Part shown: positions 1,254 through 13,721 of the stretch, piece after piece
How positions within the stretch are numbered: the first letter of the stretch is position 1
Layout: every line of letters starts with the position of its first letter
Source: a virus
Length of the DNA: 30,285 nucleotides
Virus record (IMG/VR): IMGVR_UViG_3300021964_000322
Span: 1-30,285 of that record
Reading direction: 5' to 3' (one strand)
The notes under the pieces: model-generated
What the model was told of the DNA's origin: nothing
Databases searched by the model: none
Seen by the model: the letters and a program-made list of their open reading frames with translations, nothing else
Position numbers and translations under genes: made by a program

Positions 1254-2866
1254 ATGATAAAGCTAAGAGATTACCAACAAAAAATAGTCAGCTCCCTTCG
1301 GACGTCTATTGGTACCGGAAATAAAAAGGTACTGATTCACGCTCCAACGGGAGCTGGCTGACAGGCAAAACTAAGATCAGTCAGTTTATAATAGAAAGGA
1401 TAATTTCTTCCGGTAAAAAATGTTTGTTCACAACCCCTAGGATTAAGTTATCGATCCAGACTCAAGAGAGTTTTGGATTCGGTAACCTAATTCTTGGATC
1501 TAAGACTCAAGACAATGGGTCAAACTGTACGATAGCTTCTGTGCAATCGCTTTACTCTAGAAAGGTGACTCAGCATTTTGACTTCATCTTCATAGATGAA
1601 TGTCATTTTGCTCATGGTTCTAAGTATATCGATTACATCATGGAGACTTACAGTAGCTCTGTAATTATAGGGCTGTCTGCCACTCCAATAGATGAGAACG
1701 GCTACTTACTAAGTGGATACGACAGTATAATAAGTGAGGTCGGTGTAAAGGATTTGATAAAGAAGGGTTATCTCACAGATGTTGAGGTATATTCTTCCAA
1801 CGTCCAGCCAGATTTCTCAGAGGTCCCCATAGTTAACGGAGATTATAATCAGGAGCAAGCGAGTAAGGTGTTGAAGGAACAGAAAGTTCTTTCCAATACC
1901 ATGGAGGAATGGGAGAGGTTAGCTAAGAATCTAAAGACGATTGTATTCTCAAGCAGTATTGATCACTGTGAGGAGCTTCTCAGGGAGTTTAAAGAGAGAA
2001 ATGTAACTGCGTGTAGTGTTCACTCAAAAATGTCAGAGAAAGACATTGAGAAGGCTTATATGGACTTCAATAAAGACAAGTGTCAGGTTCTGATTAATGT
2101 AGATATGGCCACGTTCGGGTTCGATGAGCCAAGTATCGAGTGTATGTTGTTTGCTCGTGGTATAAAATCACTTAGGCTATACAAGCAGATGGTCGGACGT
2201 GGTATACGTATCTACGAAGGTAAAGAAAAGTGCCTCATGATAGACTGTGCTAACGTTATAGTCGACAACGGATATCCAACAGACCCTATACCATTCATCA
2301 AGAAGCCTATTGTAAACGAAACTGTTGACAAGATGGCGAGGGTTGAGAGAGATACTGACGGTTCTATAAATGAGGAAGAAGATCTTGAGCGTATAGATTA
2401 CCTGAAGAAGATCGGAAGCCTCGTTGACCTGTATAAGGATAAGGTTTATGCCAAGGAGCAGGATCTTGTAGATGACTGTAAGAAAATCTTGAAGAGGGCT
2501 GGATATTTTATGTGGAGACAGAACTCAGGGAAGCTCTTCAAGGAAGGTAGGTGGGTTCACTTTACGGATAAGAACGGACTCCCAGATATAACTCTTGTTT
2601 ACAAGGGAGTGTATATCGGACTGGAACTGAAGCTACCCAAAGGAAGGTTAACTAAATACCAGCAGGTAACGCTTCCTGAGTTAAGCTACAATGGGATCCA
2701 GTACTTTATAATCCAAAACGTAATCGACCTGTTTGAGGTACTAGAGAAAGTGCGAGCAAATATAGTAGATCATGAAGATGGTGTGATTATAAAAGATGGA
2801 TTGAAAGAACTATCCGAAACTCAGATCAGGTACAGAGACAAATACAAGTTAAGTAAACTACATTAG
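1254..2866 (+). CDS. SF2 DECH-box helicase fused to VRR-NUC nuclease, frame broken at Walker A
   Basis: An ATP-dependent superfamily 2 helicase with a C-terminal PD-(D/E)xK-type VRR-NUC domain, probably acting in phage DNA repair, recombination or replication. Frame 1 runs from ATG 1254 as MIKLRDYQQKIV...VLIHAPTGAG and stops at TGA 1359-1361. The frame resuming at AAA 1367 reads KTKISQF and continues to 2866. Joining them by skipping 1359-1366 restores the motif APTGAGKT and gives about 534 aa. In the joined numbering: DECH at 112-115, SATP at 139-142, motif VI QMVGRGIR at 309-316, and nuclease residues GLPD (439-442) and ELK (455-457). The 8 extra bases could be a real mutation, an assembly error or a programmed bypass. 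Without rejoining, the downstream piece could start only from weak codons such as TTG 1424 and would lack motif I. Confidence 0.85.
1341..1386 (+). other. Candidate translational bypass or recoding site in the helicase P-loop
   Basis: The sequence shows a Gly codon GGC (1356-1358), a TGA stop (1359-1361), two bases, a second GGC (1364-1366) and then AAA ACT, the Lys-Thr needed to finish the P-loop. Just upstream, GCTCC (1341-1345) and GGAGC (1350-1354) can pair around a four-base loop. CTGAC (1358-1362) can pair with GTCAG (1380-1384). A matched take-off and landing codon with a stop right after take-off is the known layout of the T4 gene 60 bypass. A function here is inference; a plain 8-base insertion or assembly error is the main alternative. 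Confidence 0.4.
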
Positions 2867-2893: not shown

Positions 2894-3133
2894 ATGGTAG
2901 ACTTCGATAAGCTAAATACACAGCATCAAATCCTTGAGATAGTAAAACATAAGCATAAAGAAACAGGAGGACACTGTGGCGTCACTCCTGCTGAAATAAG
3001 GCTTCTTGTTGGATGTGATTATGCGAAGATCAAAGAAGCCTTGAATCGCTTGTATAAGCATGGTAAGATATCCGTACACCAAGGGGGGAATGGTAAGCTT
3101 GTGAAGTTTATTTCTTCTTCTTCTTCTTATTAG
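2894..3133 (+). CDS. Small winged-helix DNA-binding protein
   Basis: A 79-aa protein with the shape of a single winged helix-turn-helix domain: an N-terminal helix (QHQILEIVKHKHKE), then GVTPAEIRLLVGCDYAKIKEALNRLYKHG as helices 2 and 3, and a wing GKISVHQGGNGKLVKF. Small wHTH proteins of this kind in phages usually bind DNA as transcription or replication accessory factors; the exact role here is unknown. It is the last gene of the + strand block, 27 bases after the helicase-nuclease. Its C-terminus ends in five serines and a tyrosine, coded by TCT repeats that overlap the end of the giant virion gene on the opposite strand. The serine tail is therefore probably a by-product of that overlap rather than part of the fold. 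Confidence 0.65.
   Translation: MVDFDKLNTQHQILEIVKHKHKETGGHCGVTPAEIRLLVGCDYAKIKEALNRLYKHGKISVHQGGNGKLVKFISSSSSY
3108..3133. repeat. TTC/GAA trinucleotide tract shared by two convergent genes
   Basis: A short run of TTC repeats, about six units, forms the last codons of both convergent genes. On the + strand it reads as Ser codons ending in TAG (3131-3133). On the - strand it reads as the Lys run that ends the giant protein, with TAA at 3110-3108. The two coding sequences overlap by 26 bases, and no hairpin terminator is visible between the blocks. Confidence 0.85.
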
Positions 3134-6100
3134 ACTCCTTCTTCTTTACTATTCTTTCTATATAGTTGGAAACAGTTCCAAATTCTGAAGGAAGCGCACC
3201 GATGTTATACAGTATTGATAGTACAGCTGACAGCTGCATGTTGCTCTGACCATCCTTAGTAAGTTCATACTTAGTCCCCCACTTATTTTCATACTCACCT
3301 GTAATAGCTGTGTTACCCTTTTCAAGCATGTCACCAGCCTTACTGAAGGCTATACCTAATACTCCCCAGTCATCCCAAACACCTTTATCAACGCCTTCGT
3401 ACAATTGGAAGTTTTGCTCCTTGTCTTCTTGCTCGCCTTGTATTAAATTCAAGACCTTGTTTGCTCCAACCATGACAGGAGCGTCTAACATAGGTAGTGG
3501 AGACACTGCATCTCTAACGAAGTTCGTTGCTATCCCTTTTACTTCATACTCCATTCTTTTTTTCTTGTCCTCGTCACTTTCCTCGTATCCCAATGCGCTT
3601 GATGTCATCCCCCAGATCAGAGATCGTATCATACTTGACACAGCGTAGAACATGGCCATCTCTCCTGCTAATCCAGCTAAAGATCTAGCCGCTGTAATCT
3701 TATCCTCTTTTGAATAATATGAAGACGTTAGAGTTATTATGTCTGAATTCATTCTAGCTTTTTGGTTCATAGCGAAGTTTGCAAAAGGCATCGCTACCTT
3801 TCTTATTGTTTTTCTTAATACGTCTTTTCCAGTGAAGAACTCTCCTTGCAGGTATTCATCAGAAACGTTCTGTTGTCTGTCTACCTGTTGTTGTGCGAAG
3901 TCTAGCGCATCTTTATTAGGCTTGTGATTAGAGAAGTCTATATCTTTAGGGTTTATCCCTTGTTTTTTTAACCCTTGTTTGTAATAAGAAATAAACGAAG
4001 CTCTCGCTATGAATACATCGGCATTTTGTAAGAAGACCTTTAAGTATAATCTATTTAAATCTTCTAACTTCTTCAAGGCTTCTTTCCCTTTGCTGTCTGA
4101 TACTTGCTCAATAAGCCTGTTGATATGATCTAGCGAAGCTTGTGATGCAATACCTCTATTCGCTATCGGCATTCCAGAGTTTTCTATAAAAGCCTTTGTG
4201 TCTGGATCAAACATTGAAGCTAGGTCGAGTCTTCCAGAGTTGATTATCGTGTTTACAGCTACCGGGACAGACTGTTTTACAGACTGAGTAATTCCACCTA
4301 AAGCTTTTGAAACTCCTAATGCAGCTAGAAATTCTAAACCTTTAGAAATATTATCTAGTTCACTTCTGTCAGAGAAGTTACTTCCCTTCACGTTTCTTAC
4401 ATAGTTTTTTATCCTCCTTTCAATAAAGTCTCTGTCTTCCTTCGAACTTACAATTGAATTCATTCCATTTGAATTTAGGAATCCTTCAAGTTTCATTATT
4501 GGTGAAGCTGTGTTTATATCTGTCAATGCTGACTGTATAATGTTAGCGTTGTTCATGTCGAAATCAAGAGAGATATATCTACTAGCTTCTCCTCTTGAAT
4601 TCTTAGGTAGTGAGTTCGGCCTAGTTACTTCTCTCAAGGAACCTGACTTTGATTTATCCAAGTAGTTGTTAGCATTAAAGAATGATGACTTGTTCATGTC
4701 AACATCTTCAGACAAATCTATCTTCTTATATATATCTGGAGTATAGTTTAGATCCTTATCAAGAAGCTCGTTGTATACCTCTAGGTTTGTCTTTCTTAGG
4801 TCATCATAATGCTTAGACCATTCATTTACCCACCAGTCAACAGCTTCTAGATTTGTCTTGTCAGCCTTACTCCTAACTTCAGCAATATTATTCGAGTCCT
4901 TCAGTAACTTATCGTACACCTCTTGATAGTTTTCACCTCTCTTTACATCGGCTTCAGTACCTCTCTTTAAGGCATCTATAGATTCCTTGATGAGATTCTT
5001 TCTTCTATCAAACTCAGCTTGCTCATTACCTTCAATGGATCTGCTCATAAATGAAACGAGTCCTCTCTCATTTATATTTGTTGAGCTATTGAACACCTCT
5101 CCATTCGGTTTCTTTTTTGAGAACTTATCTGTGTAAGACTTTATTATTCTTGATGACTTCTGCTTAGCTGTTGCATAACCACTTATTACATCCGATAGCC
5201 CGGAAACTTTTTGGATTAGTCTAGCTTTCGATTTTCCAAACATTCTCTCCAAAACTATTGGCAATGTAGTGAATTGCTCTGCCATCGTTCTACCGATTCT
5301 CTTAGAAAAATACAACTTCAAAGGTCTAGATTTTATTCCCTTATTAACCAGTTTTAATGCAGCAGAATTTCCTTCTGCCTTTGAAACTATCGACTCTGCT
5401 CCAGCTAGTGATTGGTTGACTAGGAAGTTACTCATCGCATCGACAGCCTTAACTGCCTCCTCTTTACTCATAGATAAAACATCTAGGTTGGCTAATCTCT
5501 TTGCTAGATCTATTTCTGAATCTGATAACTCTAATGATTCACCAGTAAATGGATCAGAGTTTGTATTAGCCATTTCTGAAACTAAAGATGAATAGGAGTC
5601 ATAAGCTTTCTTTACGTTGGCCTTTGTGATTGGCTCCAACATTTCTGGGGTTGCACCTGTATCTTTTGATTCTTCAATAGCTTTGATCATCTCGCTTATC
5701 TCCATACCTTCTCCACTAATACCTGTAACCTCCTCGAAATGCTCATTCAGAGCTTCCCTCATTTTAGATCTCTGAGATTTCAATTGACTATTGATATATG
5801 AATCCATGTCGGATGAATCAAACTTGTCGCTAACTTTAATCTTGTTCGGACTTATTGATGTTGGTGACAATCCAGCTACTATCTCTCTAGATCTATTCAA
5901 GTATTCATCAATATCTGAAACCATCGACGGATCTATCAAAGCAAATTCATCAGCAGAAGCTCTTAGGTTCGCTGCTCTTTTCTTTGATTTTGTCATCCTC
6001 TTCATTGCAGATCTGTTCTTGTTAGCCTCCGCAAGTTTAGCTGAATAGTTGACGTCTTCCATTACATTGTTAATGTAACGTATCAACCTCTCCACCATCA

Positions 6101-9100
6101 CAGGGTTGTTTAAATTCGTTCGGTTTATCTTCTTCTGGATAGCATTTAGTTTTCTAGACTTAACCTTTGCATCATTTCTCATTCTAGAAATAATGTCACT
6201 AACCATAGAGCTGATAGCTGATCTTCTTTTGTCTTGATCCTTCTTGCTATCTCTAGCTGCTCTAGCCTCCATTCTAATCTGGCTCTTCAATGCTGATCTC
6301 TCAGTCATCGTTACCTTCTTATCTTTAGGCTCTCCAAGTATTTTCTTTACGGATGGAGATTTCTTTTCTTTCTTGCCAAGATCTTTTCTTAGTCCTCTCA
6401 TCTCTTCCTCAAACGGGTCAGACTTATTTTTATCAGCTTTAATCTCAGCGTTTGTGTAACCCATGTTTCTGAGGGCTATCTCCGTGTCTTTTTCTGATAT
6501 ACCTAGCTGCTTAGCTTTTTCTCTAACCGCCTCTATTGATGGTCTGTCATCGGATGGTTTTTGTTTTCTTCTTCTAACGGATTTTGTATTAATTTTCAAG
6601 CCTCTAGTAGAAACACCTGATGTTGGATAAATCTTTTTTCTTCTCTCAGGTTTAACGATTTCATTCGTCTCAAAGTCTTCAGTTACATCGCCCCAATCTA
6701 CTCTGTCACTCAGTATATGGAGGGTGGTTTTTTTGTCTTCAGCAGATTGAATAGCCATTGGATATGACTCGTGTTTATCTGATTTCACAGGTTTAACCTT
6801 CCCTTCCATCTCTAGCACAGCATATATTTGACCGCCACTTTCTCTTGATATATCATCTTTCAATATAGGCTCAGTCATCATTTCTGACAACGCCTGTATC
6901 ATATTCGCTTTAGAGACTTTTACTTTTCCAGTTTTAGTTACTCCCTTAAAATATTTATTTTGAATCCCTTCTGAAAAAAACTTTCCGAATTGTTCTATAG
7001 ATATATCTTTTTTGTTTATCTCTCTAGACATTTCTCCAACTAAATCTTCAACAAAAGATTTCCTGTCTTTAAAAGAACTTTTTTTTGGATCAAGCTTTTC
7101 ACTAACGCTACTCTTTATTTCACTTAATGAGTCTTTTACAGATAGGCTCATGTTTAATCCTACCTTTTTTCCGTTTACGGTCTTGACGTTGTTTGCAGCT
7201 CTTACAATAGATCTTTTTACTTGTGCTTCAGATATATTAAAGTTACTATCAAATGATTTTGAAGAGAAGAAATCCATCACAGCGTTGGACATGGTAGTAC
7301 TAGACATTAACTTTGATCTTGGAGCGCTAGTCAGAGCCATGTAAATCTTTCCTCCGTTTTGCTCCATTACTTTATTCAAGTCATCAGCCATTTTTTTTGC
7401 GACTCTATCTGTACTAGCCCAAAAATAACCGTCTTCATGGAACTTTATAGGGTAGTACATACCTCCCTTTCCTTCTACTAATAGTTCCCCATCCTTAAGT
7501 ATCTGACCAGAGAAAGCTGCGTCAGGTTGGTGAAAAAAGAAAAACTTACCGTCAAAATCAGATATACTCTTACCATCGGTTATGTACCCTTCTTTTTTTA
7601 ACTTATCAAATCTATCACTATTCTTATCGTAAGAAAACGTTAGCTTAGAAACAGCGTCTGAAAAGTTACTCTGTAATCTTCTAAGTGGCTTCTGCTCCCT
7701 GTCCCACTGTCTGGTTTGATTCTGATCTAGGTCTGCATCAGTCAACTCATCTATTGGAATGCCACCTAAAAAATCAGCCCTAGTATCCCTAGCTGGCATT
7801 GGGTCTCTTCTAATAACATCTATGTCAGACTCTTCAATTACAGACCCTTCTCTAACACTTTTTGACACGGTGTTTAACATGTCAACAACTTCGTTGTCTG
7901 TAAATAGTTTTAATCCGAATAACTTCGCTAACTTATCTAGCCATCTTTTGATCAAGTTTTGTGTTGGTCTAGGTAGCGTCTCGTATTCAGACGCTAGTAT
8001 GCCAAATAGTTCGGCAATCGACTCTTCGCTTTGTAAAGGTTGTTCGTATCTAGAACTGAACTCTTCTAACTCTGCTAAAAGCTCTGGCGATGCAGATTTT
8101 TTTACAGCGTCAAGCATCTTGTTTGTTATTGCCTGAGCTTGCTTGTCACCCATTCCCTTGCTTAGCAGAAGAGTGTGGAACACCTCGTGAGCTACAGTTC
8201 TTTCATTTGCAGCCTCCATATTAATATGTATAGTATCCGTGTCTATATCATATTCACCACCCTCATTTTGATTTCTATTTCTTCCAGATTCAGTATAATC
8301 CTTCGAAGTTTCATGGACTACTATCTTTGTCTTAGGAGATATTTTGCTTAAAGCTTTTTCTGCCTTCGCAACTTGATCTAATACTTGCTTTCTTTTCTTT
8401 GGTGTTACCTTGCTTTTTTTCGGCTTCTTGCCGAAAGCATCAAGTAGGCTTAATGCCCCTTCTGTAACTTCTGGAATTACATCGTCAGCTACCTCGAAAG
8501 TTTCTTCTGTACTTACTGTTGGTTCTTTTTTAGTTGAACTAATTTCAGAATACTTCTCTGGAAGTAGTCCCATTTTTTGTTCAGCAAACTTTCTTTCAGA
8601 TGGTTTCAAATATCCTTTGTCACCCTTCTTTAAAATCTTTCCGTCCTTCCCTCGCATCTGAGGTCCGAAGTTTACCCAAGAGTTTTGACCCTTAGTCTCG
8701 GTAGTCATCGCTCTTCTAGCCTTGTCTGAAAACATTCTAGCGTGTACATCCCAAGCATTCTCCTCGCCTATAGCTCCGAAACCATTACCTCTTTCGCTGT
8801 GACCAAAGAAGTCATGGACAGCTCTAAACAAATCATTTACCAGTAATGGCTCTCCGTTTACATCCTTAAACTCTGTTGAACCGAGCATTGCATTTTCAGA
8901 TCTTTGCTTATCTGTGATGCCAGTTTCGCCAAAGCCTCCTTCTGTAGAGAATATGTAGATATGCTTATTTTCCTTCAGGTCTTTAATCATCTCTTCAGAG
9001 TTGGCGTAAGGTTCTCCTTCCCCTTTATATATCTCAACCTCGTATCCAGCATCCATTAAAGCCTTGTACTGATCAACAGTTTCTAAAGCTAGTGCATCAT

Positions 9101-12100
9101 ACGCCTCCTTAACTTCTGGATCATTAGGGTTATCTTCCATAGCTTCGTATGCGTCTGCTATTTCTTTTGATAGATCTTCGTCAAGTTCCGTTATAGGTTC
9201 ACCTTCGTCAAACTCTATTCCTTTCTCTTCTCTGTACTTCTTAGATATTTGAGCCGTCTCTTTGTTTGGCTCGTTGAATAATCTTTTACCCGGCTCGACT
9301 ACAGTTTTGTTGGCACTATTAGAAGTTGACGTTGGCTTATAGTTCTTAGCCATCTCATAAGCCTTGTCAAAGTCGGTTATGGTTTCACCTTCACCTACTT
9401 TAGCTTTATAATCTGGGTCGTAAACAAAGAATACATTATCCGGTTTTGAAGCTAGCGTTGTATTTTCCCATCCTTTTGGAGCCATATCGGGGTCGAACGG
9501 CATACGAGCTACAGGTCTAAATCCATTCTTTACATAGATCTCCTCTAGAGTTGTTCCATCTCCCGTCTCTGGGTTTATACCAAAGGCATCAAAGAACTTA
9601 CCTCCTGCTTTTGTTCTTACTTCTTGAAGTGCTTTAGAAGCTTGATTCTTATCTGAATTAGGATCCTTAAACAAGCCACCCATATAGCCGTCAGCAGTTA
9701 CATACGCTCCAGCTTTTCCATCGCTTGTCAAGAATAGCTTTCCACCCTCATCTATAATCTTCTGTGCGTCTTGTTCCGATGTTGGATCTACTTGTAGTTT
9801 AGTGTCTGTCCTTTGTGATAAGGCTGAGGACTGAGCTTCAGCAAAAGCTTTAGCATCAGTCGACTCAGCTATATCTTTAGCAGTGTAACTCGCTACTTCT
9901 TCGGTAGTGACTTTGGGTTTTACCTCTGTTTGCACAGGCTTAAGAACAGGTAAGTCTATTTCAACTGTTGATCCTGCTAGTCTAGCTGCGCCTTTTGGTT
10001 TTGTCCAATATATATTATTCTCATTTAATCTGAGTTTTTCAAGGTATGGCAATAATGCTTCTTTTACTTTATTGAATTCTTTTTCAGTTCTAACTTTTAT
10101 ATTTTGGAAATCACCTTGCTTTACATCTATTCCTAATTCATTTACTAGTGCATCACCATTTATAGATACTCTATTTGTTATATAAAAACCTTTCTCATCT
10201 AGTGCAAATTCATATGTACCTCTATCTATTTGATTCCCCCATACTCTAAGACCATCAGTGGATATACTTGTTTTTTCTGTATATAGGTGATCAGAAGGAA
10301 GTCTCTCCTGAACAGAAGATATCATAGTTTTGAAGTTATCTTTCTTCTTACTATCTATATTCTTGTCTCCTGTATTTTGATTTTCAAACTTGGAACTCCA
10401 TTTATTAGTTGGTTTGCCGTTCTCGTATATCCTGTAATATCCTACAAAGTTGTTCTCTGAGAATCCGCTTATAACGGTATTTATGAGTCCTGTTTTTTCG
10501 TTTGCATATGTGGCAACAGCTATATCGTTTATTACATCAACACTTACAGGTAAGGCTTTCTCATTTGATCCAGTTGGTAAATTAGCCCCTATAAAAAGAT
10601 TATCAACACCTTCTTTCTTTAATCTTGCCTCTGCCTCCTTGTTTCTCTGAGTTATTTCAGATGGGTTAACCTGACTAGGATTTATTATTTCTTGTTTACC
10701 TTCTTCGGTCGGTTCGACATCTTGTTTTTGCACTTCTTCTTCGGTGCTGACATCGCCTTCTTGACTTTCTTGTACTTCATCTGTTGTTTGTTTTTGTTGG
10801 TTAATATTATCTTGTTCCTGAACAGCTAGTGCTGCATCGTATTTAGAGTTTATTTTTTGTTTCTCTTCTTTTATATTTATAGCATTACCGTTTTCATCTG
10901 TCGGTATTTCGCCTGTCTTTTCTGATTCTGCTTGTTTTGCATCTAATATCGATAACTCTTCTTGTCTTATTCTTTCTATATCAGCCTTTTGAGGTCCTTG
11001 TTTTTGTTGTTCGATAATTGATTCTATCTCTGTCTTCTGCACAGGAGATAATTGAGACTGCTGCTCTTCGGCAAACTTTTTTATTTCATTAACTATAGGA
11101 CTGTCAGACTCAAAGTTAATTACTTGTTTTGACGCCCAATCTGCCCACTCTTCATTAGACACCTGTTCTTCAGTATCTACACCTCTATTTAATGGATTCG
11201 TAAAAGTAGACACGGTAGATGTTCCCGTACCATATATTTGAGATAGTAGATATGTTAATGCGAACTTCTCCATAGCATCTTCTGGAGTTTTCCCGAAAGT
11301 TCTTTCTACTGCTTTGTCGAACCCAACATTATTTTTACTAAGCTCGTCTACAAACTGACCTGTATATTCAGCAGCAGTTTGAGATAATGCACCGCCCACA
11401 GACTTAGATAATATAGATAGCATTCGATTGTTAACCTTAAATTTCTTTAACGCTGCATCAACTAGAAATTGACCCACACCTTCTCCAGCACCACCTACAA
11501 ATCCTTCTCCAGCCATTTCAAATGCGGCACCTTGAGAAGCTGCTTCGTATATAAGATCTAAACCAAATTTTGCAACTTTATTACCCCTTGATAACGTTTC
11601 TATTAGTTTAGGAATTTTGGCTACTCCAGCCACTTTATTTACCAAAGCTAAGTCCATCATTATTTCTCCCATCACTGGGATAGACGCTCCAGCCGCTTCG
11701 CCTAATTCTTGAGTAAAGTCTTTTTTCAAAGATTCCATTTGACTCAATGGTATCTCGTATCCTAAAGACTTAATTTGATTTATAGTTCTTTCTGCTACAA
11801 CCTCGTCTACTTGAGATACACCACCCATTTCTTCTTTGAATCCCTTACCAGCGTAGGTAAAGAATCTTTCAAAACCTTTAGAATCCTCTATTCCAGCTGG
11901 ATCTTCGTTGAGCTTCAACGCTCTGTTTACCGCCATGAAATCTGCGAGTATTAGTTGAGCTTTCATAGTAACTTCATATCCAAATATATCGCTATTCATA
12001 ATCTTGAATGCGTCTGACATGTCGCCTTTACCACCTAAATCCCAACCGTGAAAATTGTAAGGATTTCCGTACATATCTATAGCGATCTGCTTTTTCTGAT

Positions 12101-13721
12101 CTTTAGTGAATTCGGCATTCAACCCTTGCGAATCGGTAGGTGTTGTCAAACCAAAAAGATTAGCGTATTTCTCCCTAGCAATGCTATTTAAGTTAGCAAT
12201 GTCTTGATCCAACATAACGTTGTTCACAAAATTCTGATACTGAAAATACAAATCATCTCTCCTCTTCTTCAGCCTACCTACATCGGTGTTCTCATAAGTC
12301 TTAACCTTTTTGTTCATCTCTTTGTTAAAACTTATAATCTCTGGATCCTTAGTGTTCCCAGATACATACTGACCTGTCTTTGGGTCAAACAAAGTATTTG
12401 CTCCGTAGTTTCCTTGATCTGTAAATTTTTTTAACTCAAGCCTTTTTATCCGTAGCATCTCCTTGCTGGCTTCAGATTGTATTGGAGTATTCTCAAGTTC
12501 AATTATAGATTTTCTCAGGTCTCTCACCTTTTTTAAATCATCACTTAGGAACATTTCACCTATGCGCTCCATTCCTTTTTCAAACTCAATCTTAGCTCCC
12601 TCAACATCCCCACCTTTTTTGTCAACTATGTTAACAAAGACCTTCTTGATCAGTTCATCTCCACCCTTTTCAATGGCTTTATTTGCAAGACTTGCTCTAA
12701 ACTCTAGTACATCATCAATGTCGAAATCCTCCATACCCTCAATCGGATCCAATTTTAATCCTGTACCTTCTGGGTCAAAGTACAAATTATACAATGCTAG
12801 GTTAGCTAAATTTTCCCTAGCATCTTCTTCAGACATATCATACACTTTTGAAATCGTTTCTACGTATGTTTTCTCTATGTCATTTTGGATCTTCTTTTTC
12901 TTAATGTTGTCAATAGCCTTTTGCTCATCTCTGATTTCTTCTTCACGCTTCAATCTTTTACCCGTATCCATATAATCCTCTGGACTCATGCCTAAATTCT
13001 CTGCCATCATTAATGTTATATCAGAGTACGACTGATCCGCTTTTACTACTTGATTAGGGTCTCCAGATCCTTTATATTGTGGGAGCTTAGGATCATCATC
13101 TGTATACGCCCTAAACGGTAATTTGATCCTCTCAAATTCCCTTGTTTTTAAATCTGATTGTCCATATGCAGGGAATCTATTTATCATAGGTTTGTAGTCA
13201 GATGGATCCGATAAATATTCTCCTAAATACACTCCCCCGTATTTTAACTCACTTTGCTGCTCTTGTGATTCTGGCAAATACGCTTCCCCGTATTTTAACT
13301 CACTTTGCTGCTCTTGTGATTCTGGCAAATACGCCGCCCCGTATTTTAACTCACTTTGCTGCTCTTGTGATTCTGGCATAAATGAAGAGCCATCCTGCTG
13401 ATAAGGTAATTCGGACGGCTCTGAAGGCTGTGATGTCAAATCTGATTCCGATGCAGGCGTACCTGTAGCAGGTTGCCCAGAAGCTTCCAAGTCGCTTCCA
13501 GTAGGTGCCAAAGTTTCTTCTTTTTTTTTTGAGGTTCCCCAAGCAGACTCGAATGTTTGGTAGTCAGTCTTTGAGCTTACAATCCTCTTACGTACACCTT
13601 CGTTATAAAGGTTTTCTATAATAGACTTGTCAGCATTTGAGAATTGCTCGAATGTTGTTTTAGGACTTAATAATCCATTCTCAATGTAGCTGTTGTAAAG
13701 TAGTTCTAATTTATCTTCCAT
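3108..13721 (-). CDS. Giant polyvalent virion-associated protein (3537 aa) with zincin and other enzymatic-looking domains
   Basis: A giant, last-in-operon protein of the kind that phages package and inject with their DNA (large polyvalent proteins; crAss-like cargo proteins are an analogue). The layout in residues is: a Pro/Ser/Gln-rich N-terminus with three 17-aa repeats (about 115-165); helical, partly hydrophobic region (about 640-860); Gln/Glu-rich linker (about 900-1060); GNAT-like domain (about 1285-1420) with Y-V-K-N-GFRPVARM; a domain with HDFFGH at 1636-1641 (about 1480-1720); a zincin metallopeptidase with HEVFH at 1845-1849 and a downstream SEESIAELFG Glu (about 1760-1950); a domain with FHQPD around 2063 (about 2010-2380); a Lys/Arg-rich coiled region; and a long helical C-terminus with a hydrophobic segment near 3350-3370 and a poly-Lys end. 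Enzymatic roles are inferred from motifs. Anti-defence or host take-over functions are plausible but unproven. Confidence 0.8.
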   Translation of the reverse strand: MEDKLELLYNSYIENGLLSPKTTFEQFSNADKSIIENLYNEGVRKRIVSSKTDYQTFESAWGTSKKKEETLAPTGSDLEASGQPATGTPASESDLTSQPSEPSELPYQQDGSSFMPESQEQQSELKYGAAYLPESQEQQSELKYGEAYLPESQEQQSELKYGGVYLGEYLSDPSDYKPMINRFPAYGQSDLKTREFERIKLPFRAYTDDDPKLPQYKGSGDPNQVVKADQSYSDITLMMAENLGMSPEDYMDTGKRLKREEEIRDEQKAIDNIKKKKIQNDIEKTYVETISKVYDMSEEDARENLANLALYNLYFDPEGTGLKLDPIEGMEDFDIDDVLEFRASLANKAIEKGGDELIKKVFVNIVDKKGGDVEGAKIEFEKGMERIGEMFLSDDLKKVRDLRKSIIELENTPIQSEASKEMLRIKRLELKKFTDQGNYGANTLFDPKTGQYVSGNTKDPEIISFNKEMNKKVKTYENTDVGRLKKRRDDLYFQYQNFVNNVMLDQDIANLNSIAREKYANLFGLTTPTDSQGLNAEFTKDQKKQIAIDMYGNPYNFHGWDLGGKGDMSDAFKIMNSDIFGYEVTMKAQLILADFMAVNRALKLNEDPAGIEDSKGFERFFTYAGKGFKEEMGGVSQVDEVVAERTINQIKSLGYEIPLSQMESLKKDFTQELGEAAGASIPVMGEIMMDLALVNKVAGVAKIPKLIETLSRGNKVAKFGLDLIYEAASQGAAFEMAGEGFVGGAGEGVGQFLVDAALKKFKVNNRMLSILSKSVGGALSQTAAEYTGQFVDELSKNNVGFDKAVERTFGKTPEDAMEKFALTYLLSQIYGTGTSTVSTFTNPLNRGVDTEEQVSNEEWADWASKQVINFESDSPIVNEIKKFAEEQQSQLSPVQKTEIESIIEQQKQGPQKADIERIRQEELSILDAKQAESEKTGEIPTDENGNAINIKEEKQKINSKYDAALAVQEQDNINQQKQTTDEVQESQEGDVSTEEEVQKQDVEPTEEGKQEIINPSQVNPSEITQRNKEAEARLKKEGVDNLFIGANLPTGSNEKALPVSVDVINDIAVATYANEKTGLINTVISGFSENNFVGYYRIYENGKPTNKWSSKFENQNTGDKNIDSKKKDNFKTMISSVQERLPSDHLYTEKTSISTDGLRVWGNQIDRGTYEFALDEKGFYITNRVSINGDALVNELGIDVKQGDFQNIKVRTEKEFNKVKEALLPYLEKLRLNENNIYWTKPKGAARLAGSTVEIDLPVLKPVQTEVKPKVTTEEVASYTAKDIAESTDAKAFAEAQSSALSQRTDTKLQVDPTSEQDAQKIIDEGGKLFLTSDGKAGAYVTADGYMGGLFKDPNSDKNQASKALQEVRTKAGGKFFDAFGINPETGDGTTLEEIYVKNGFRPVARMPFDPDMAPKGWENTTLASKPDNVFFVYDPDYKAKVGEGETITDFDKAYEMAKNYKPTSTSNSANKTVVEPGKRLFNEPNKETAQISKKYREEKGIEFDEGEPITELDEDLSKEIADAYEAMEDNPNDPEVKEAYDALALETVDQYKALMDAGYEVEIYKGEGEPYANSEEMIKDLKENKHIYIFSTEGGFGETGITDKQRSENAMLGSTEFKDVNGEPLLVNDLFRAVHDFFGHSERGNGFGAIGEENAWDVHARMFSDKARRAMTTETKGQNSWVNFGPQMRGKDGKILKKGDKGYLKPSERKFAEQKMGLLPEKYSEISSTKKEPTVSTEETFEVADDVIPEVTEGALSLLDAFGKKPKKSKVTPKKRKQVLDQVAKAEKALSKISPKTKIVVHETSKDYTESGRNRNQNEGGEYDIDTDTIHINMEAANERTVAHEVFHTLLLSKGMGDKQAQAITNKMLDAVKKSASPELLAELEEFSSRYEQPLQSEESIAELFGILASEYETLPRPTQNLIKRWLDKLAKLFGLKLFTDNEVVDMLNTVSKSVREGSVIEESDIDVIRRDPMPARDTRADFLGGIPIDELTDADLDQNQTRQWDREQKPLRRLQSNFSDAVSKLTFSYDKNSDRFDKLKKEGYITDGKSISDFDGKFFFFHQPDAAFSGQILKDGELLVEGKGGMYYPIKFHEDGYFWASTDRVAKKMADDLNKVMEQNGGKIYMALTSAPRSKLMSSTTMSNAVMDFFSSKSFDSNFNISEAQVKRSIVRAANNVKTVNGKKVGLNMSLSVKDSLSEIKSSVSEKLDPKKSSFKDRKSFVEDLVGEMSREINKKDISIEQFGKFFSEGIQNKYFKGVTKTGKVKVSKANMIQALSEMMTEPILKDDISRESGGQIYAVLEMEGKVKPVKSDKHESYPMAIQSAEDKKTTLHILSDRVDWGDVTEDFETNEIVKPERRKKIYPTSGVSTRGLKINTKSVRRRKQKPSDDRPSIEAVREKAKQLGISEKDTEIALRNMGYTNAEIKADKNKSDPFEEEMRGLRKDLGKKEKKSPSVKKILGEPKDKKVTMTERSALKSQIRMEARAARDSKKDQDKRRSAISSMVSDIISRMRNDAKVKSRKLNAIQKKINRTNLNNPVMVERLIRYINNVMEDVNYSAKLAEANKNRSAMKRMTKSKKRAANLRASADEFALIDPSMVSDIDEYLNRSREIVAGLSPTSISPNKIKVSDKFDSSDMDSYINSQLKSQRSKMREALNEHFEEVTGISGEGMEISEMIKAIEESKDTGATPEMLEPITKANVKKAYDSYSSLVSEMANTNSDPFTGESLELSDSEIDLAKRLANLDVLSMSKEEAVKAVDAMSNFLVNQSLAGAESIVSKAEGNSAALKLVNKGIKSRPLKLYFSKRIGRTMAEQFTTLPIVLERMFGKSKARLIQKVSGLSDVISGYATAKQKSSRIIKSYTDKFSKKKPNGEVFNSSTNINERGLVSFMSRSIEGNEQAEFDRRKNLIKESIDALKRGTEADVKRGENYQEVYDKLLKDSNNIAEVRSKADKTNLEAVDWWVNEWSKHYDDLRKTNLEVYNELLDKDLNYTPDIYKKIDLSEDVDMNKSSFFNANNYLDKSKSGSLREVTRPNSLPKNSRGEASRYISLDFDMNNANIIQSALTDINTASPIMKLEGFLNSNGMNSIVSSKEDRDFIERRIKNYVRNVKGSNFSDRSELDNISKGLEFLAALGVSKALGGITQSVKQSVPVAVNTIINSGRLDLASMFDPDTKAFIENSGMPIANRGIASQASLDHINRLIEQVSDSKGKEALKKLEDLNRLYLKVFLQNADVFIARASFISYYKQGLKKQGINPKDIDFSNHKPNKDALDFAQQQVDRQQNVSDEYLQGEFFTGKDVLRKTIRKVAMPFANFAMNQKARMNSDIITLTSSYYSKEDKITAARSLAGLAGEMAMFYAVSSMIRSLIWGMTSSALGYEESDEDKKKRMEYEVKGIATNFVRDAVSPLPMLDAPVMVGANKVLNLIQGEQEDKEQNFQLYEGVDKGVWDDWGVLGIAFSKAGDMLEKGNTAITGEYENKWGTKYELTKDGQSNMQLSAVLSILYNIGALPSEFGTVSNYIERIVKKKESNKKKKKK
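13237..13378 (-). repeat. Three tandem 51-bp repeats inside the giant gene
   Basis: Near-identical 51-bp units begin at about 13239, 13290 and 13341. Each encodes a 17-residue unit PESQEQQSELKYGxxYL. The unit length is a multiple of three, so copy number can change without breaking frame. The DNA identity is nearly complete apart from the two codons after the Gly, which points to recent duplication. The encoded segment is polar and probably disordered or a short interaction motif. Confidence 0.9.

Follow-up and report, generated by a model that had tools for sequence, protein, structure and literature searches.

An SF2 phage helicase gene in the window (the whole stretch of DNA that was analysed, an IMG/VR record of 30,285 bases) is interrupted within its Walker A codons by eight nucleotides that begin with an in-frame stop codon, and stop-containing inserts of this type recur at the same motif in other phages, including cultured isolates. 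Judging from the sequences, we consider it likely (probability about 0.7) that the helicase is expressed through short programmed translational bypassing, a putative stop-hop, and that the insert probably spoils the target of an endonuclease. The likeness to phage T4 gene 60 proposed in a first-pass annotation of this DNA is supported by the recurrence of the inserts at one motif in unrelated phages, their gap lengths, a covarying stem-loop, selection on the downstream frame and endonuclease neighbours. The gap proved far from unique to the contig that was annotated, and that annotation missed the link to homing endonucleases.

The split helicase frame that it described is real. All features of this locus lie on the plus strand. 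ORF1 (positions 1254–1358) comprises 35 codons that begin MIKLRDYQ and end in APTGAG (full translation MIKLRDYQQKIVSSLRTSIGTGNKKVLIHAPTGAG), followed by the in-frame stop TGA at 1359–1361. The take-off codon GGC (1356–1358) and the landing codon GGC (1364–1366, a position occupied by GGN in 13 of the 15 interrupted contigs) match across the gap, as had been pointed out, and the extra bases can equally be described as TGACAGGC (1359–1366) or as GGCTGACA. Eight bases after the start of the stop codon, ORF2 (1367–2866) restarts at AAA ACT (Lys-Thr) and stays open for 499 codons up to 2863, its stop codon following; the annotation's estimate of some 500 open codons with helicase and nuclease motifs thus holds. 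The helicase matches Pfam ResIII and Helicase_C and PHROG 16 and 93, which identify it as an SF2 phage helicase with a nuclease-like C-terminal region. Joined across the gap, the two ORFs form one conserved protein with exactly the Walker A motif of the relatives. An intron or intein in the window is ruled out, the insert being only 8 nt long. No tRNA genes were found in the window. Elsewhere, the minus strand carries a single ORF of 3537 codons (3108–13721), in which short repeats (PESQEQQSELKYG) occur close to the N-terminus.

Aligning relatives over the site, a check that the annotation had suggested, showed that the eight bases are missing from the two closest (L002 and L003), which read GGGGC(T/A)GGCAAAACT and also lack the HNH gene found upstream in the window. 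The window is 96–97% identical to these two relatives in ORF2 and roughly 86–97% per 100 bases in the upstream gene, whereas its 5' helicase tract shows only 67% nucleotide identity between flanks of about 90–97%, and the insert sits precisely at the jump in identity. Given these mosaic breakpoints, the 5' tract and insert of the window appear to have been imported recently; in L055 and L056, the 5' tracts are 99% identical and the remainder 80%. Our first impression of the window insert as a recombination scar was dropped given its recurrence elsewhere. Since the mosaic tracts show that some inserts are recent, the argument from selection is weaker at those loci.

Altogether, stop-containing Walker A inserts were recognized in 19 phage records, namely 15 contigs including the window and four isolates; the IMG/VR scans were run without TAG-type stops, so this number is a lower bound. 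A search for relatives of the HNH gene, which was blind to the insert, yielded L005, L006, L007 and L009, all with a Walker A insert. Pattern scans then gave L004, L048, L050, L051, L055, L056, L087, L091, L098 and L115. Throughout, the stop codon comes first, the insert measures 5–8 nt, and its excision restores an exact Walker A motif. When the spacer from the stop to the second GGN was allowed to vary (0–30 nt, later 0–12), helicase matches had spacers of 0, 1 or 2 nt only, corresponding to gaps of 6, 7 and 8 nt; in matches outside helicases the spacers were longer and the flanks made no sense. The pattern matches L049, L052 and L053 represent one unrelated locus and were set aside. A scan of 84,980 genomes of bacteria and archaea for the 8-nt pattern produced 25 chance matches, none of them in a helicase. 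Three different phages from a single metagenome (3300020045; L006, L098, L115) all carry the 6-nt form GGN TAA GGN.

Among the isolates, Nonlabens phages P12024S and P12024L have a 5-nt gap (GGC GCA GGA TA GGT AAA ACC) in which the stop, TAG, borrows its G from the start of the landing codon, and P12024S infects the marine host Persicivirga (Nonlabens) sp. IMCC12024; Listeria phage B025 also has a 5-nt gap (TGT GGT TA GGT TCA GGC AAA), and Staphylococcus phage phiSP15-1 an 8-nt gap from Ala to Ala (TCG CCT GCC TGA AT GCA GGA AGC GGT AAA). The helicases of all four are annotated in GenBank from internal starts past the P-loop and look truncated, a mis-annotation that the present comparison exposes. 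Their unannotated true N-termini lie at 1433–1543 of L197 (P12024S), 1503–1625 of L199 (phiSP15-1) and 1114–1290 of L200 (B025). Cultured relatives with an intact motif include Vegas, BCJA1c, Dulem 35, Acjo_20, phi46:1 and Javan400.

Gap lengths over all loci are 5, 6, 7 and 8 nt, the 5-nt class coming from the isolates, so that three reading-frame relations lead to one product. The landing triplet belongs to the codon family of the take-off codon in 18 of the 19 records, with the L007/L009 type as the exception and counted as one design; the window itself reads GGC-TGA-CA-GGC. Restricting the count to inserts detected independently of the GGN pattern leaves six matches out of seven (the window, L005, L006, P12024S/L, phiSP15-1 with Ala/Ala, and B025; L007/L009 again differs), for which the chance expectation at 1/16 each is about 4e-7, a value to be read with the proviso that some inserts may share ancestry. 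The match is at the level of the codon family (GGN/GGN, GCN/GCN) and not of the tRNA isoacceptor, where 8 of 13 contigs agree, about as expected by chance and without enrichment. In L007 and L009, the insert TAATCT follows CCT ACA at another Walker A position and leaves a mismatched landing (ACA to TCT); a hairpin and purifying selection are nonetheless present.

RNA structure provides the strongest new evidence. In the window, a 5' stem-loop spans 1287–1358 (MFE -36.6 kcal/mol), its outer stem pairing 1287–1296 with 1349–1358 so that the 3' arm includes the take-off codon; the z-score at the site is -5.18 against a mean of -0.31 for the same gene. The hairpin that the annotation had placed at 1341–1354 (GCTCC AACG GGAGC) is able to fold, but the evidence favours a larger structure of about 70 nt. 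A stem-loop that ends at the codon immediately preceding the stop is found at 16 of 18 distinct sites, the exceptions being phiSP15-1 and B025, in which the structure test detected none. For the region that begins 80 nt before the Lys codon and ends 45 nt after it, the mean z is -4.4 for the 15 contigs versus -0.8 for 76 intact relatives (0.2 in L002 and -0.4 in L003); when the 66 nt preceding the gap were randomised synonymously, the means were -4.2 versus -0.6, the intact controls belonging mostly to one helicase family. In 16 loci, 266 segments from other parts of these genes were compared with the site, and only 1 was as structured as its own site.

In alignment A5 (the window, L004, L005, L087, L006 and L091), every cell of the nine-pair outer stem is paired (54 of 54), with double-sided changes at five of the nine pairs, a result that no shuffled or slid alignment approached; these compensatory changes occur in six sequences whose helicases are only 26–65% identical, and RNAalifold recovers the same outer stem. 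L048, L051, L055, L056, L098, L115, L007 and L009 have a compact hairpin instead, and in this subtype covariation across families is weak. The second weak stem proposed over the TGA received no support beyond chance: for a downstream or gap-RNA stem-loop, z is -0.75 in the window and averages -0.18 over the loci, compared with -0.01 in controls. The 5' stem-loop known from gene 60 is found here, and a take-off or A-site stem-loop formed from gap RNA is not supported, for which reason we classify these loci as working like gene 60 and not as the same element.

The part of the helicase that follows the gap is under purifying selection. L007 and L009 share their insert by descent, since they are as similar around the site as elsewhere in the compared region, the HNH gene alone having been swapped; after the gap omega is 0.094 (77 synonymous and 31 non-synonymous changes). 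P12024S and P12024L are identical in the 5' tract and insert and have a pN/pS of 0.18. Progressive decay of the downstream frame in relatives, which the annotation had named as a counter-test, was not seen at any interrupted locus.

Directly upstream of the window helicase lies a NUMOD4-HNH homing endonuclease gene (826–1248; Pfam PF07463 and PF13392; PHROG 59/959). An endonuclease gene occupies this place in 10 of the 15 interrupted contigs and is of at least three kinds: NUMOD4-HNH in the window, L005, L006, L007, L009, L087 and L115, other HNH in L048 and L051, and GIY-YIG in L098. By comparison, in 48 intact relatives the 2 kb upstream never contain an HNH_3 or GIY-YIG gene. The HNH genes of L005 and L007 are 85–99% identical over most of their length between flanks of about 60–80%, indicating that the gene has moved horizontally; members of a homing endonuclease family both adjoin the presumed target gene and show the expected mobility. 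Despite the near identity of these HNH genes, the inserts of L005 and L007 differ and must have arisen separately, both with the stop first. In P12024S, the gene that precedes HNH in L005 (72% identical) stands directly before the helicase; HNH is absent and the insert is retained. L012 has the same HNH subfamily (around 772–830) before an intact SNF2-type helicase (GCGLGKT), which shows that an upstream HNH gene is not always paired with an insert. NUMOD4-HNH genes were also seen directly before a Sak4-like ATPase with an intact GPTMSGKS in L031, L033, L036 and L040 (after about 3028). Two relatives of the L055 helicase, L135 and L196, carry an intein-like insertion in the same Walker A (C-terminal ...DFTITHN|CGKT), just before locus position 1501. 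Inserts and intein-like insertions at a single motif mark the Walker A codons as a repeated target of mobile elements.

On the proposed bypassing mechanism, ribosomes would come to a halt after about 35 codons, the P site holding the Gly codon of APTGAG and the A site the stop. Reaching into the take-off codon with its 3' arm, the 5' stem-loop would re-form behind the ribosome and pull on the mRNA; by capturing the GG vacated at the take-off codon, this zipper step would drive the ribosome forward by 8 nt (5–8 nt in the relatives). Peptidyl-tRNA-Gly would then re-pair at the next GGN, and decoding would resume at Lys-Thr, yielding an exact Walker A. At the DNA level, helicase genes without an insert would be cleaved by the homing endonuclease encoded next door, and in the course of repair they would acquire a copy of its gene together with the 5' tract and the insert. 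Cleavage presumably falls in the conserved Walker A codons, where the insert would destroy the target and so probably persists. A role of the insert in shielding the helicase gene from mobile DNA-cutting enzymes is suggested by its position, its neighbours and the T4 precedent.

Several other readings deserve consideration. The inserts could be inactivating scars of homing-endonuclease repair in dead helicase genes, too recent for the downstream frame to have decayed, and the apparently recent import of the 5' tract and insert in the window, like the nearly identical tracts of L055 and L056 in otherwise diverged genes (99% versus 80%), is compatible with this. Such scars, however, predict neither a stop right after the take-off codon, nor exact restoration of Walker A, nor a covarying stem-loop; moreover, L007/L009 and P12024S/L have been under purifying selection while interrupted, and no decayed frame was seen, so that we regard this explanation as unlikely. 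Still less probable is some other recoding, by readthrough at 6-nt sites, a -1 or +2 frameshift at 8-nt sites and +1 at 5- and 7-nt sites, by which Walker A would gain additional residues. The -1 frame of the 8-nt cases does read [LIM][TNK]GKT, although this is largely dictated by the stop codon. Readthrough or an alternative genetic code calls for a gap that is a multiple of three and fails for gaps of 5, 7 and 8 nt; taken together, the four lengths fit neither readthrough nor any single frameshift. A separate event would be needed for each length and extra residues would enter a rigid P-loop, whereas one hop accounts for all, and bypassing is preferred because a single process serves the 5-, 6-, 7- and 8-nt gaps alike.

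That the stop and hairpin form a regulatory or DNA-level device (an attenuator, or an endonuclease or recombinase signal), with a short peptide and an internally started fragment as products, seems improbable enough to rank below both. Internal starts of this kind are indeed annotated in GenBank, but a fragment beginning past the P-loop would lack the mode of ATP binding known from SF2 helicases, helicase residues are kept in ORF1, and the loci do not all share a start codon. An assembly or sequencing error is scarcely credible: the window is one metagenomic contig and its eight bases border a diverged tract, yet the same feature occurs in many independent metagenomes and in the isolates P12024S and P12024L, and this recurrence rules out a lone error as well as a lone scar. 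The landing mismatch of L007/L009 and the lack of a 5' stem-loop in phiSP15-1 and B025 do speak against the hop, which leaves them unexplained, as do the chance-level isoacceptor agreement and the unsupported downstream stem-loop. Beyond the window, we lean only slightly towards the broader proposition that natural short stop-hops of 5–8 nt are widespread, powered by an upstream stem-loop that absorbs the take-off codon once it is vacated, and have arisen repeatedly as tolerance of nuclease-proof inserts in phage helicase P-loops. If this is true, a recurrent minimal form of bypassing exists in cultured phages and offers many natural variants to dissect; such variants would reveal if a hairpin together with a stop is enough, and bypassing as tolerance of nuclease-proof inserts would become directly testable.

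We found no earlier report of such helicase stop-hops in the open-access literature, and a 2016 review was not aware of any natural in-frame example (PMC5009743). In E. coli, synthetic stop-hops with matched codons around a stop and 9 nt for one amino acid have the same layout as the 6-nt GGN TAA GGN sites of L006, L091, L098 and L115; the sites described here differ in being natural, in having a stem-loop and in existing also in 5-, 7- and 8-nt versions. The byps of Magnusiomyces capitatus mitochondria are likewise short non-coding inserts skipped by ribosomes and tolerate imperfect codon matches (PMC5009743), but they belong to yeast mitochondria, are longer and have no reported dependence on mRNA context, in contrast to the single motif and dedicated stem-loop seen here. 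Walker A inteins, to judge from the insertions of L135 and L196, hit the same codons; unlike the 5–8 nt inserts with their stop codon, inteins undergo translation and are then spliced out of the protein.

The closest parallel is T4 gene 60, where forward movement is aided by a 5' stem-loop that folds in the wake of the ribosome and the stop beside the take-off codon matters (PMC5009743, PMC11194080). Shared with it are a Gly take-off codon followed by a stop, a matched Gly landing codon and a 5' stem-loop (PMC5009743, PMC3014915, PMC11194080), a stretch of about 35–46 codons before the hop (ORF1 measures a similar 33–44 codons here and is an ordinary helicase N-terminus in sequence), and a nearby HNH homing endonuclease, mobA in T4, with an insert proposed to be nuclease-protective. 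There are also differences. Here the gap is 5–8 nt, far below the 50 nt of T4, as the annotation had remarked; the 3' arm of the stem-loop includes the take-off codon, and no take-off or downstream stem-loop is supported; the gene encodes an SF2 helicase P-loop and not a topoisomerase; and the arrangement recurs in many phages, while bypassing in gene 60 has been described as apparently unique among T4-related phages (2010 review, PMC3014915). The best explanation is that these helicase genes work like T4 gene 60 but represent a distinct, short-gap form.
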